The notes: generated by a model not told the origin, from the letters alone. A stretch of 32,200 bases of DNA from Wenzhouxiangellaceae bacterium (GCA_007135395.1 SLIZ01000114.1:1-32200), one strand, 5' to 3'. Positions 2,616-7,742 are shown, counted from the first letter of the stretch. Translations and numbers: made by a program.

Positions 2616-3110
2616 CTATGCCGCCCCGGGGGTTGGGGAATCGGGTCTTGCCCCCACCTTTTGCTTCACCGCCGTAATTTCTCCCTGATCATCGAGCTCG
2701 AGCACAATGACCTTGCTGGCGTGAATCCGCCGCAAGTCCTCCATGCTGACCTTGAATCGCTCGCTGATCATTTCATTAGTAACCCGTTGCGATGGCTTGC
2801 GCCGGCTTCTTCCTGTGAATCGGATCTGGTTGTACCGGCTCCAGCCCACGATCACCAGCGCCGCCGCGGCAATGACGACCGCGTAGAGGGTCAGGGTGAT
2901 CAGGTAGCTTCGACCCGCCGGGTCGAGCATGTAGCGGCCAAACAGATCCGCGCCGAGCCACCAGGCAAGCAGGCTGAGCAGGGGCGCAAGCAGGTAAAGC
3001 CAGATGGCCCATGCAGCGACTGTCAGGGCCCGGTAGGCATTGCGCTGCCCCCGGGATTGTAGGTCCGGCCGAAAAATGATGTCCGGATGTTTCGGTGGAT
3101 GGTTGGTCAT
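2616..3110 (-). CDS. pgaD: PgaD, inner-membrane subunit of poly-GlcNAc synthase
   Basis: A 164-aa partner of PgaC in the inner-membrane poly-beta-1,6-N-acetylglucosamine synthase. Known PgaD proteins have two membrane helices and a short cytoplasmic tail, and in E. coli PgaD and PgaC together bind c-di-GMP. Here the helices lie at about 29-52 and 68-90, followed by the family signature SRYNQIRF (91-98). The C-terminal part matches the E. coli layout, ending in a short segment like VIVLELDDQGEITAVK. It is somewhat longer than E. coli PgaD (137 aa). The ATG at 3110 overlaps the pgaC stop by ATGA, which supports this start and translational coupling. An upstream in-frame extension to 3257 lies inside pgaC and is rejected. 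Confidence 0.88.
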   Translation of the reverse strand: MTNHPPKHPDIIFRPDLQSRGQRNAYRALTVAAWAIWLYLLAPLLSLLAWWLGADLFGRYMLDPAGRSYLITLTLYAVVIAAAALVIVGWSRYNQIRFTGRSRRKPSQRVTNEMISERFKVSMEDLRRIHASKVIVLELDDQGEITAVKQKVGARPDSPTPGAA

Positions 3111-4384
3111 GGCCGCACCCCCCGGTCCGGGCTGACCCAGACGGCGCGCTTTCCGGGTTTTTTGAGGAAAGCCCTTGGCAGGGCCACTACCGTGGTCAGC
3201 ATGCTGATCAACCAGAAGGCCAGCGGGTACCAGATAACCCAGAAGTAGATTCGCCAAAGTCCCTTTTCATACCGACTGTCGATGGTCAGGCTGACGGCAA
3301 ACTGGATCAGGCAGGTGATTCCCAGGATGACTCCGTTCCACTGGGGCAGCAGGGTCTCAACGGTCAAAGCCTGGGGCAGCGGTGCGATAAGTCCGGCGAA
3401 ATACAGCACTACGATGGCCAGCATGACATAGGCCCAAAGCACGCTCAGGACATACTCGAACAAAACGCCCCAGAGCCGTCGCCGGCGCCAGGTCAGGGTA
3501 TCCAGGGCATAGCGCCTGAGAACTTCGATGCCGCCCTGGGCCCAGCGCAAGCGCTGACTCCAGAGCCCCTTGAGGGTTTCCGGCATGAGAATCCAGCACA
3601 AGGCATTGGGTTCGTAGCGAACGTCCCAGTGGTCGGACTGCAGCAGCCAGGTCACATCGATGTCCTCGGTGACCATATCGGTATTCCAGTAGCGATTGCG
3701 GTGCAGTGCGGACTTGCGAAAACCGGCGACCACACCGGACACGGTAAACACCCGGCCGTAGATGCGCTGGGCACGCTTGATCAGACCGATGATGGAAGAG
3801 AACTCACCGACCTGCAGACGACCAAGCAGGGTGGAGCGGTTGCGGATGCGGGGGTTTCCGGTGACCGCGCCGACCCGGGTTCCGGAGGTCAGATGCCACA
3901 TCAACCACTGCACCGCAGCGGGATGCAGAATGGCATCGCCGTCAATACAGACCAGGTACTCGTTTTCCGAAGCCATGGCCCCCATCCGCAGGCCCATGGC
4001 CTTGCCCTGGTTGGTGGCAAAGTGAATCACACGGAGCTTGTCGTGGCGTTCGGTCAACTCGTCCAGGATTTGTGCCGTGTTGTCGGTGCTGCCATCGTTG
4101 ATGGCGATGACTTCATAGTTCGGGTAGGTCTGGTCCATCAACCATGCAACGGTCTCCCGCAGGTTTTCTCCTTCATTGAAGCACGGCAGCAGGACGGAGC
4201 AGGGCGGATAGGAATCCAGGGCCGGCGGTTTTTCCGGATCGGCGCTTTGCCGGCGCTCCCAGTGGAAGAAATACCAAAGCCCGCCAAGCATCCATACCCA
4301 GGCCATGAACAGTGGGTAGAAAAAGGCGAAGTTGAACATCCACGCAACCGGACCGGTGGTGGCACCCCATGCAAGCCAGTCCAT
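3107..4384 (-). CDS. pgaC: PgaC, poly-beta-1,6-GlcNAc synthase (GT2 glycosyltransferase)
   Basis: Processive family-2 glycosyltransferase that polymerises UDP-GlcNAc and passes the chain through the inner membrane. It has 425 residues against 441 in E. coli. An N-terminal membrane segment spans about 15-40. The catalytic domain shows CSVLLPCFNEGENL (62-75), INDGSTD with D97, the DGD metal-binding motif (148-150), the catalytic TED motif (239-241) and QRLRW (277-281). Three or four further membrane helices follow (about 305-335, 350-368 and 378-402). All signature residues are present, so the enzyme should be active. The start codon overlaps the pgaA stop codon (TGATG) and the stop overlaps the pgaD start (ATGA), a fully coupled three-gene unit. 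The gene order leaves no room for pgaB. Confidence 0.95.
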   Translation of the reverse strand: MDWLAWGATTGPVAWMFNFAFFYPLFMAWVWMLGGLWYFFHWERRQSADPEKPPALDSYPPCSVLLPCFNEGENLRETVAWLMDQTYPNYEVIAINDGSTDNTAQILDELTERHDKLRVIHFATNQGKAMGLRMGAMASENEYLVCIDGDAILHPAAVQWLMWHLTSGTRVGAVTGNPRIRNRSTLLGRLQVGEFSSIIGLIKRAQRIYGRVFTVSGVVAGFRKSALHRNRYWNTDMVTEDIDVTWLLQSDHWDVRYEPNALCWILMPETLKGLWSQRLRWAQGGIEVLRRYALDTLTWRRRRLWGVLFEYVLSVLWAYVMLAIVVLYFAGLIAPLPQALTVETLLPQWNGVILGITCLIQFAVSLTIDSRYEKGLWRIYFWVIWYPLAFWLISMLTTVVALPRAFLKKPGKRAVWVSPDRGVRP

Positions 4385-6411
4385 CAGAAACGTACCTCCA
4401 GGCCAATGCTCCCGTGGAGCCTTTGCTCCCGGTCACCATCGTAGACCCGGGTCGACAGACCGACCCCGTAATCCAGATGGAAATCGTTGCCCAGAGCCCA
4501 GCGGTGCCGGTAACCAAGGTCGCCGATGGCGCCGGTACCTGCCCCGTCCTGCCAGTAGGCCCCGGCCCCGGCCAGGAAGCGCTGGGTCAGGGAATTCGTG
4601 TAGTGACGCCAGGTAAGCCAGTCATGCTGGACGGTATAGCCCAGCGAGGCATCCCGGGATGGGTTGAAGTAGGGTCCGCCTTCCTGGCTGGCCCGGGAGC
4701 CATACAGGTCCAGCGACCCGGAAGTGATGTGGTGGGCCTGGCTGATCAGGCGGTGGTCGCTGCCCAGCAGGGCGGACCATCGGGTATTGCCATCGGAGAT
4801 TCCAACACGGGTCAGGGAACCCCGGATTCCCAGGGATTCATGGGCCTGCCAGCGAACCGCAACCTGTCCCTTGTCCCCGTCCAGGCCCTGCCCCCGGGCT
4901 CGTAATGGAACGTCCTGGGTAAAGCTCTCGTAGCGGGTGGCAAAGCTCCAGTGATCCCCGGAATGCCAGTCGTACCCGGCAGTCCATCCCGTTTCCGCGG
5001 TTCCCGTCCGGTTGCGGTGAATTTCAAGGTACCCATGGTGGCGACGGTCCCGCCAGCTGGCGCCCACACCGATGCGGTCGTAGTCCGCCTCGCCCTCGGG
5101 AAACCGGGCGTCGGCATAGCGGCTGGTAATCCAGGGCTGGAAGTGGTGGCCGATGACCGGTGCCGTCAGGCGGTTGTTCAAGGACCGGTCCCTGGAGCCC
5201 AGCGCCTGAAAGCCATCGCTGTCGCCGTACTCGGCCCGGCTGGACAGGTGCCAACGGTCCCGATTCTGCCAGTCCCGGTATTGGCGCTGGACATGCAGGT
5301 TTTCCGGATGATCGGCAAGCAGGGATTCCAGCATCGCCTCGGCCTGCGCCGGGCGCTGGAGTTCGGCCAGGGCGGCGGCACGGGCCAGCCGGGGACCAAC
5401 CGCCTCCGGTGCCTCGGCCACTACCGGGTCTATGATCTCAAGGGCCCGGTTGGGCCAGCCCCGCCAGCGGTAGACCGTCGACAGCTCCTGACGGATACGA
5501 AGGTGCTCCGGATGTGCTTCGGCAAGGGCTTCCAGCCGTTGCTGGGCTTTGTCGAGCCGATTGGCAAAGGCGTGCCCCATGGCGGCAACCAGTTCAGCTT
5601 CCACGCCGGAGGGTTGGCCCTTGTGCTCGGCAGCCAGGTTCTCGATTTCTTCCAAAGCTTCATTGAACCGCTCGGATTCGACCAGGGCGTAAAACAGGGC
5701 AATTCGCGCCTGGAAAGCGGTCGGATCTCCGGCCAGTACTTGCCGGTAAAGGGTCGTGGCTTGTTCAGGCTGGCGCAGGTAGAGGTGGGCATCGGCGGCA
5801 GACTGGATTACCCAGCTCGGCGGCTCGATGCCCTCGTCGATCAGGGCCTGGTACTCGGCCACGGTTTCTTCCATGCGTTCGCGCTGGCGCAGTGCCAGGA
5901 TGTAGTCGAACCGGGCCCGCCGGGTGGCCGGGCCGTCGGCGGGCAATTCCTCGAGCAGGCCTTCGAGCTCTTCCAGTGCCTGGTCAGTCGTTGCCTGGCG
6001 CCGGGGAATATCCTCCATGGGTTCTGCCTGGCGAATCCACTGGGCGGCCATGTCTCCCCGTAACTCGATGACCTGGTCTTCGTCCAGCTCGCCGCGAAAC
6101 CGTTCGAGCAACTCACGAGCCGCATCCGGCCCTTCCAGTACGGCCACTTCCAGAATCCGCTCCCGCAGGGCCTGGAAGTCCGAGGGGGCTGGCTCGGTGG
6201 CACTGGCTGACATCAGATAGCCGACCTGATCCAGCGATATGCCGGATGGCTCGGCTGCACCTGCGTCCACGATCGTGGAGCCGATCACCAGTGCTGAGGC
6301 CAGGAGAAGCAAAAAGGGTCGTGGCAACGGCCTGATTTCCCCCCCACCCTGATGTGCCGGCCTGGAGTGGCCTTGCGGCCGGCTGGCAGTGGTCGAGCCT
6401 GAATGAAACAT
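4384..6411 (-). CDS. pgaA: PgaA-like outer-membrane poly-GlcNAc porin with TPR domain
   Basis: A 675-aa protein expected to export poly-GlcNAc across the outer membrane. It has a long n-region followed by a hydrophobic signal segment (PFLLLLASALVIG, about 33-45). Alpha-helical TPR-like repeats fill about 75-390, for example AEYQALIDEG, ATTLYRQVLAGDP and ALEIIDPVVAEAP. In E. coli PgaA this part scaffolds the deacetylase PgaB in the periplasm. The C-terminal 280 residues are rich in alternating aromatic beta strands and end in EVRF, as an outer-membrane barrel does. It is shorter than E. coli PgaA (807 aa). The ATG at 6411 has an AAGGAAG ribosome site 8 bp upstream; a later TTG start would give a more usual signal peptide but has no better site. 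First gene of the pgaACD unit. Confidence 0.88.
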   Translation of the reverse strand: MFHSGSTTASRPQGHSRPAHQGGGEIRPLPRPFLLLLASALVIGSTIVDAGAAEPSGISLDQVGYLMSASATEPAPSDFQALRERILEVAVLEGPDAARELLERFRGELDEDQVIELRGDMAAQWIRQAEPMEDIPRRQATTDQALEELEGLLEELPADGPATRRARFDYILALRQRERMEETVAEYQALIDEGIEPPSWVIQSAADAHLYLRQPEQATTLYRQVLAGDPTAFQARIALFYALVESERFNEALEEIENLAAEHKGQPSGVEAELVAAMGHAFANRLDKAQQRLEALAEAHPEHLRIRQELSTVYRWRGWPNRALEIIDPVVAEAPEAVGPRLARAAALAELQRPAQAEAMLESLLADHPENLHVQRQYRDWQNRDRWHLSSRAEYGDSDGFQALGSRDRSLNNRLTAPVIGHHFQPWITSRYADARFPEGEADYDRIGVGASWRDRRHHGYLEIHRNRTGTAETGWTAGYDWHSGDHWSFATRYESFTQDVPLRARGQGLDGDKGQVAVRWQAHESLGIRGSLTRVGISDGNTRWSALLGSDHRLISQAHHITSGSLDLYGSRASQEGGPYFNPSRDASLGYTVQHDWLTWRHYTNSLTQRFLAGAGAYWQDGAGTGAIGDLGYRHRWALGNDFHLDYGVGLSTRVYDGDREQRLHGSIGLEVRF

Positions 6412-6708: not shown

Positions 6709-6765
6709 ACCTAAAAAAAGCTGCATATGGCACGATGGCGGCAGCGTTGTGATCAGGAAACAAGC

Positions 6766-7200
6766 ATGGAAGAAATCAGTGAAATCGTGGTTGCCGTGGA
6801 TGGTTCCGACAGCGCGTTGCGTGCTGCCCGGTTCGCCCACGGGCTATCCCGGGTGTCCGGCAGTCCCCTGACGTTGCTTTATGTCTTGCCGGCAAGTCCG
6901 ATGGATTCTGCCTGGGTGGCAGCCCTTACGGCGGATGAACTGGCCAGGGCCAGAGAGGAGGCCGGCAGGACAGTCATCCAGGGGGTTTGCGAAAAACTCG
7001 GCCTGACCGAATCCGATGTGGACGGGGTAATAGTATCGGGGGATCCGGCCGGTGAAATCATCGACTACCTGTCGGAAGGCTCCGGGCGCATGTGTGTGAT
7101 GGGCCGGCGGGGACGTTCCGGATTCGGCGCCCTGTTGCTCGGCAGTGTCAGCGACAAGGTGGTCCGCCATGCCCCGGGGGTGGTTACCCTGGTTAGTTGA
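6766..7200 (+). CDS. Universal stress protein, UspA family (first of a tandem pair)
   Basis: A 144-aa single-domain Usp. It starts with IVVAVDGSDSALRAARFA (D12 in the nucleotide-binding VAVDGS strand). It ends with the ATP-binding motif G113-RR-G116, nine residues, then G126-S127, which marks the ATP-binding type rather than the UspA type that lacks nucleotide. Such proteins support survival in stress, stationary phase or oxygen lack. The ATG at 6766 is chosen because AGGAAA lies just upstream; an in-frame ATG at 6727 has no ribosome site and adds residues not found in the family. The second copy, 107 bp downstream, has the same length and nearly the same C-terminus (MGRRGRS...LLLGSVSDKVVRHA), so the pair is a tandem duplication. 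Confidence 0.93.
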   Translation: MEEISEIVVAVDGSDSALRAARFAHGLSRVSGSPLTLLYVLPASPMDSAWVAALTADELARAREEAGRTVIQGVCEKLGLTESDVDGVIVSGDPAGEIIDYLSEGSGRMCVMGRRGRSGFGALLLGSVSDKVVRHAPGVVTLVS

Positions 7201-7210
7201 TTCACATCAA
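7197..7210 (+). promoter_or_regulatory. FNR/ANR box upstream of the second uspA
   Basis: TTGAT-TCAC-ATCAA is an exact match to the TTGAT-N4-ATCAA site bound by FNR, ANR and DNR oxygen or NO sensors. It overlaps the TGA stop of the first uspA. Its centre (7203.5) lies about 42 bp before the start point predicted from the -10 candidate at 7234-7239, the usual class II activator spacing. Confidence 0.75.
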
Positions 7211-7233
7211 GTCCATACATGCCCGCCAGGTGG

Positions 7234-7239
7234 CACAAT
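7234..7239 (+). promoter_or_regulatory. Candidate -10 element of the FNR-type promoter for the second uspA
   Basis: CACAAT, four of six matches to TATAAT. Transcription would start near 7245-7246, giving a leader of about 62 nt. There is no good -35 box, as expected for a promoter that needs an activator at -41.5. Confidence 0.45.
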
Positions 7240-7307
7240 GAAGTGACCGGCAAGACGCTTTCGGGTTAGCCCGGATCAGAATCAGGAAAAAAGGAGAGCA
7301 GATCATC

Positions 7308-7742
7308 ATGAGCGAATTCAGTCGTATTGCAGTAGCCGTGGACGGATCGGATGGATCGATTCGTGCCGCCCGGGTCGCCAGTCGCCTGTCCCGGGATACC
7401 GGAAGCCGGCTGACCCTGCTTCACGTGTACCCCATTCTGCCCAGCGAGATCATGGGTGCCGTGAGCCTGACCGCCGAGGAAATCGAGCGGGCGAAGAAGT
7501 CCAGCGCAGAGCGGGTTTTCAAGGTTGTCGAAGACGAATTGAGTGATCTGCCCGATGATGTGGAGCGGACCAGTCTGCTCGGAGATCCTGCCGAAGAGAT
7601 TCTCGGTTACCTTGAAGAGCACTCCGGAACCCTGATGGTCATGGGTCGCCGGGGACGTTCGAAAATCCAGTCCCTGCTGCTCGGTAGTGTCAGCGACAAG
7701 GTTGTTCGCCACGCAAGAAGCCCGGTAACCCTGGTTACCTGA
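7308..7742 (+). CDS. Universal stress protein, UspA family (second of a tandem pair)
   Basis: A 144-aa Usp with the same architecture as its upstream neighbour: IAVAVDGSDGSIRAARVA at the N-terminus and the ATP-binding motif GRRG-N9-GS near the C-terminus. The ribosome site is an AAAAAAGGAGAG stretch 5' of the ATG. The two copies differ mainly in the middle (about 40-105), where dimer or partner specificity is expected to lie. A perfect FNR/ANR box at 7197-7210 suggests induction when oxygen is low, as known for several Pseudomonas usp genes under ANR. It ends 18 bp from the convergent aroE stop. Confidence 0.93.
   Translation: MSEFSRIAVAVDGSDGSIRAARVASRLSRDTGSRLTLLHVYPILPSEIMGAVSLTAEEIERAKKSSAERVFKVVEDELSDLPDDVERTSLLGDPAEEILGYLEEHSGTLMVMGRRGRSKIQSLLLGSVSDKVVRHARSPVTLVT

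Follow-up and report, generated by a model that had tools for sequence, protein, structure and literature searches.

The window, that is the whole stretch of 32,200 nucleotides analysed here, constitutes an entire contig (C94) of a Wenzhouxiangellaceae genome assembled to 2.78 Mb in 271 contigs and estimated to be 91.9% complete. It carries a three-gene PNAG operon on the minus strand, with the following features.

4384..6411, minus strand: pgaA, 675 aa, PNAG export porin of the outer membrane with a shortened periplasmic TPR domain (TIGR03939, PF21197); leader at residues ~1–53, TPR region at ~60–385, 16-strand barrel at 388–675
4382..4386, minus strand: TGATG, overlap of the pgaA stop and the pgaC start, at the site occupied by pgaB in other genera (from the sequence)
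3107..4384, minus strand: pgaC, 425 aa, GT2-family PNAG synthase (TIGR03937; alignment to E. coli PgaC)
2616..3110, minus strand: pgaD, 164 aa, synthase partner subunit (TIGR03940, PF13994)

In profile searches all three products exceeded the curated cut-offs of the NCBIfam equivalog (TIGR) models, with 419 bits versus 367 for PgaA, 614 versus 422 for PgaC, and 99 versus 31 for PgaD; the expected Pfam models were matched as well. The preliminary description of this DNA had reported the operon at these coordinates, with pgaA and pgaC overlapping by TGATG and no pgaB between them, which the sequence bears out. As pgaC and pgaD likewise overlap (ATGA), there is neither a gene nor a remnant between the three genes. 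The DGD, TED, and QRLRW motifs of PgaC are intact in an alignment to E. coli PgaC, and inspection of the PgaC alignment revealed no site altered in PgaB-less sequences alone. Two tandem universal-stress-protein-like genes (6727–7742) diverge from pgaA, and three relatives (L032, L033, and L104) have at least one such gene upstream of pgaA; these genes and pgaA perhaps share a control region.

PgaB had been noted as missing from operon and window, with a suggestion to look for it elsewhere in the genome. Neither the PgaB model (TIGR03938) nor the model of its GH domain (PF14883) gave a match anywhere in the 91.9% complete assembly, while both detect E. coli PgaB as a control. The survey was extended to 101 genomes of the order, 15 of which contain PgaC above cut-off, six within Wenzhouxiangellaceae and nine outside. 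All six pga-positive members of the family (mostly MAGs) lack PgaB, TIGR03938 showing no hit above cut-off in any of the five relatives of the window's genome; these include the cultured Wenzhouxiangella sediminis XDB06 (G006). Conversely, PgaB was found in 88 of 88 pga-positive genomes outside the family but within the order (9/9, then 79/79 in a wider draw). The PgaA, PgaC, and PgaD components of the Gram-negative PNAG (pga/hms/bps) system are thus present but the periplasmic CE4 deacetylase with GH153 domain that defines PgaB is not, and by its gene content the system is a PgaB-less variant rather than a canonical pgaABCD system. Neither a gap in the assembly nor a recent deletion accounts for the absence; the latter had been considered initially, in the form of a simple loss visible against close relatives, and does not hold given that the loss is clade-wide (6/6). 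A different arrangement was observed in Alkanindiges and another Moraxellaceae genome, in which pgaA and pgaC are adjacent and pgaB is located on the other strand at a distance of a few kb (L112:7978-13641; L113:7963-13726).

The closest operons found outside the family are those of DLM2.Bin61 (L107), CSSed162cmB_233 (L108), and Thioalkalivibrio sp. XN8 (L110), which share 73–77% identity with the window in PgaC and 45–47% in PgaA. These three, and L111, have pgaB between pgaA and pgaC. In a concatenated PgaA and PgaC tree the PgaB-less operons of the family form one clade (support 97/95) beside the PgaB-containing L107, L108, and L110, and one ancestral loss of pgaB among the pga-bearing Wenzhouxiangellaceae is therefore the best reading of the sequence data. 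The position of the window is not fixed in a tree of PgaC only. The operon lies beside usp and aroE in G034, in G038, and in the window, and the neighbourhood in G038 also includes hemB, engB, and a cytochrome gene farther out; this shared context argues that the locus was inherited and that the loss is ancestral. Judged from these comparisons, the PgaB-less state predates the split of two genera. A gammaproteobacterial MAG (CSSed165cm_587, L116:319-3473) shows the same layout, with a pgaA of 622 aa overlapping pgaC and no pgaB. Grouping it with the PgaB-less operons of the family is rejected in the PgaA and PgaC tree (AU test, p = 6e-5), so that it apparently represents a second, independent loss, as far as the 1.3 Mb of genome examined allow. 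A further candidate, G444 (L117), was dropped since its pgaA runs to the contig edge.

PgaA of the window comprises 675 residues as compared to 807 in E. coli. The difference of 132, located at the N-terminus, agrees with the earlier estimate of about 130 residues and with a TPR region having been kept. An AlphaFold2 model (mean pLDDT 88) depicts a TPR superhelix followed by a 16-strand barrel, the latter superimposing on the solved barrel of E. coli PgaA (4Y25) with a Z score of 31.2 and 1.5 Å over 287 residues. By sequence, residues 115–247 match the TPR module of E. coli PgaA (7T8N; E = 1.5e-5). Across the family, 303–382 residues precede the barrel, up to ~50 of them leader, as compared to 513 in E. 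coli and 557–676 in the closest PgaB-containing relatives, whose starts may be set too early. The segment gone from the family PgaA corresponds to most of E. coli residues 32–220, and all six PgaB-less proteins of the family retain the groove residues D230, R237, R279, and the aromatic residue at position 314. In E. coli, residues 32–220 are needed to stimulate the PgaB hydrolase but not for PgaB binding, residues 220–515 bind the deacetylase domain of PgaB, and residues 220–367 bind two kinds of PNAG pentamer with nearly the same affinity, the Kd values being 1.7 mM (fully acetylated) and 1.3 mM (mono-deacetylated) (PMC9384988). The part serving the hydrolase is thus mostly gone while the part serving the polymer is kept, and we infer from this comparison that the losses of PgaB and of the N-terminal TPR segment are functionally linked. 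The shortening cannot be equated with loss of the PgaB-binding part, because the region that binds PgaB in E. coli (220–515) is the retained C-terminal TPR.

Nor does PgaA length alone serve as a marker of PgaB loss, as the preliminary description implied: PgaA proteins of 675–699 aa are encoded by PgaB-containing genomes of family f2, which belongs to the same order (f2 appears to be Rhodanobacteraceae-like, and f12 Xanthomonadaceae-like). Leaving out frames cut by contig ends, no PgaA frame below 685 was found across 92 operons with complete PgaB, versus 611–686 in PgaB-less operons (Mann–Whitney p = 3e-5, ignoring kinship). A short PgaA accompanying PgaB loss is a trend rather than a rule or a test. 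In two genomes, G408 and G398 (L095:5861-8937; L156:2932-6364), PgaB matches the deacetylase half but hardly any or none of the GH153 half, and their PgaA proteins are the shortest seen (511 and 559 aa). In G301 PgaB is shortened, yet PgaA is not very short. The first two cases hint at a joint evolution of the N-terminal TPR segment of PgaA and the hydrolase domain of PgaB. No barrel change marking the PgaB-less clade was found among the two features compared, total net charge and R556Q. The arginine is invariant in 21 PgaB-containing sequences and replaced by glutamine in the PgaB-less ones, but glutamine also occurs in the PgaB-containing L107, L108, and L110; the exchange is a lineage change unlinked to PgaB loss. 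Likewise, a loss of acidic barrel charge was discarded, as total net charge (−5 to +3 in PgaB-less versus −19 to +8 in PgaB-containing proteins) does not differ.

We propose that the operon encodes a PgaB-independent PNAG machine in which the product of PgaC and PgaD leaves through the shortened PgaA without deacetylation or trimming, a reading given a probability of roughly 0.6 on the basis of the comparative analysis. An ancestor of the pga-bearing Wenzhouxiangellaceae would have carried pgaABCD and lost pgaB once. As judged from their families, PgaC and PgaD would polymerise β-1,6-GlcNAc and move the polymer across the inner membrane, where it would meet the TPR module of PgaA that lies closest to the membrane and corresponds to E. 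coli 220–367. The PgaA barrel would then export a polymer neither deacetylated nor trimmed. Comparison shows that the N-terminal TPR segment was mostly lost along with PgaB, and the predicted product is PNAG that is essentially fully acetylated and uncharged. A precedent may be seen in Bordetella bronchiseptica, where deacetylation is apparently not needed for PNAG transport albeit needed for robust biofilm (PMC5933820), and where one explanation put forward for transport without deacetylation is that PgaA has a smaller TPR domain (PMC9935895). Several points speak against the proposal. E. coli without PgaB keeps PNAG in the periplasm, according to work cited in PMC9935895; a preference for cationic polymer has been ascribed to the E. 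coli barrel; the comparison revealed no barrel change specific to the PgaB-less clade; the PgaB-containing f2 genomes also have a rather short PgaA; and the six PgaB-less genomes are mostly MAGs. A high-pH habitat as cause, i.e. amines being uncharged in soda lakes, was considered and rejected as the sole explanation, as several PgaB-less and PgaB-containing operons alike stem from isolates with soda-lake-sounding names.

If a secreted deacetylase encoded elsewhere acted in trans, the exported polymer would still be partly deacetylated. The preliminary description had left the choice between such an enzyme and a fully acetylated polymer, and the latter fits better: no CE4 family tested tracks pga or is common to all six pga-positive genomes. 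The genome-wide check for PF01522 deacetylases that it called for returned a single match in the window's genome (G000), a CE4-like protein on contig C128 without recognisable signal peptide. Its family occurs in most relatives lacking pga, and an ortholog is absent from the pga-positive G006. Distribution and the absent signal peptide thus rule against this protein as a substitute for PgaB. G006 and G040 do carry a secreted-looking CE4 protein beside a glucosaminidase-like gene, which would suit a role in trans; however, the secreted CE4 of G006 is present in at least nine pga-less family members but in just two of the six pga-positive ones, a distribution that rules it out as well. The searches were confined to CE4 families, a scope that leaves this alternative some room; it is the main rival reading, and overall we regard it as doubtful. 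Independently of pga, the secreted-looking CE4 gene adjoining a Bax/FlgJ-like glucosaminidase-like gene is widespread in Wenzhouxiangellaceae (L057:560-2484; L056:1010-2934). The C128-type family (L001:1327-2136) adjoins prmA in the window's genome and is sometimes present in two to three copies per genome in relatives.

The operon could also be a relic on its way out, with the polymer trapped or never made, as proposed for pgaB-less Shigella, in which loss of pgaB was read as lost PNAG production (PMC7112194); the patchy occurrence of pga, which 6 of the family's 43 genomes carry, would be in line with this. Still, no complete PgaB-less copy has a disrupted reading frame, and comparisons of species pairs in which pgaB is missing from both give dN/dS values of 0.13–0.17 for pgaA, 0.03 for pgaC, and 0.06 for pgaD. 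Values this far below 1 indicate that all three genes are still under purifying selection. Together with the conserved PgaC motifs and a PgaB-less state that antedates the divergence of two genera, this makes a dying operon unlikely. Finally, pgaB might be present but unassembled, or too diverged for the profiles, considering that G000 is 92% complete and fragmented into 271 contigs. This is contradicted by the agreement of all six family genomes, one of which (G006) is 99% complete, by pgaA and pgaC lying adjacent in every copy with both genes on one contig (a gap of 12–46 bases or an overlap), and by the detection of PgaB with TIGR03938 in 79 of 79 other genomes. A missed pgaB is, accordingly, very unlikely.

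In summary, PgaB-independent export is the preferred reading, and a selected pgaACD operon without pgaB suggests that an exporter of unmodified PNAG exists in nature. The chances appear about even that the whole clade practises stable three-gene export of PNAG that is uncharged and fully acetylated, the trimming of the PgaB-specific part of PgaA being a consequence, and that L116 reached this layout on its own. In E. coli, unlike in Bordetella, PgaB is regarded as essential to the export of PNAG. Since one member of the PgaB-less clade, W. sediminis XDB06, is cultured, it can be tested directly whether export requires deacetylation or whether adhesion alone does; acetylated PNAG and a minimal PgaA might also be obtained from the clade. 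The paired loss of PgaB and the N-terminal TPR segment would moreover lend evolutionary support to the division of labour in PgaA proposed on biochemical grounds.

Gene losses in pga operons are already on record from a survey covering 1,733 genomes (PMC7112194). What appears to be new is a conserved, selected pgaACD system without PgaB that was inherited across a family; a narrow text search of the literature returned no description of a PgaB-less operon of this kind. An environmental organisation in the same survey (S4 Fig. iii) resembles the window in having no detectable pgaB. There, however, pgaC is rearranged and pgaD is missing, and the authors suspected undetected divergence, whereas the window operon has retained pgaD and the usual gene order, and PgaB was sought throughout the genome. 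The operons L110, L107, and L108 differ from that of the window in that their PgaA is long and a gene for full-length PgaB separates pgaA from pgaC. The bpsABCD system of B. bronchiseptica is alike in that PNAG export without deacetylation has been reported, with a smaller PgaA TPR domain suggested as reason, but Bordetella encodes PgaB and needs it for robust biofilm, while the window operon is devoid of the gene. Compared to E. coli pgaABCD, PgaC, PgaD, and the PgaA barrel belong to the same families, and the TPR module 220–367 is kept along with its groove residues. The operon differs from that of E. coli in lacking PgaB, deacetylase and GH153 domain alike, and in a PgaA without most of residues 32–220.
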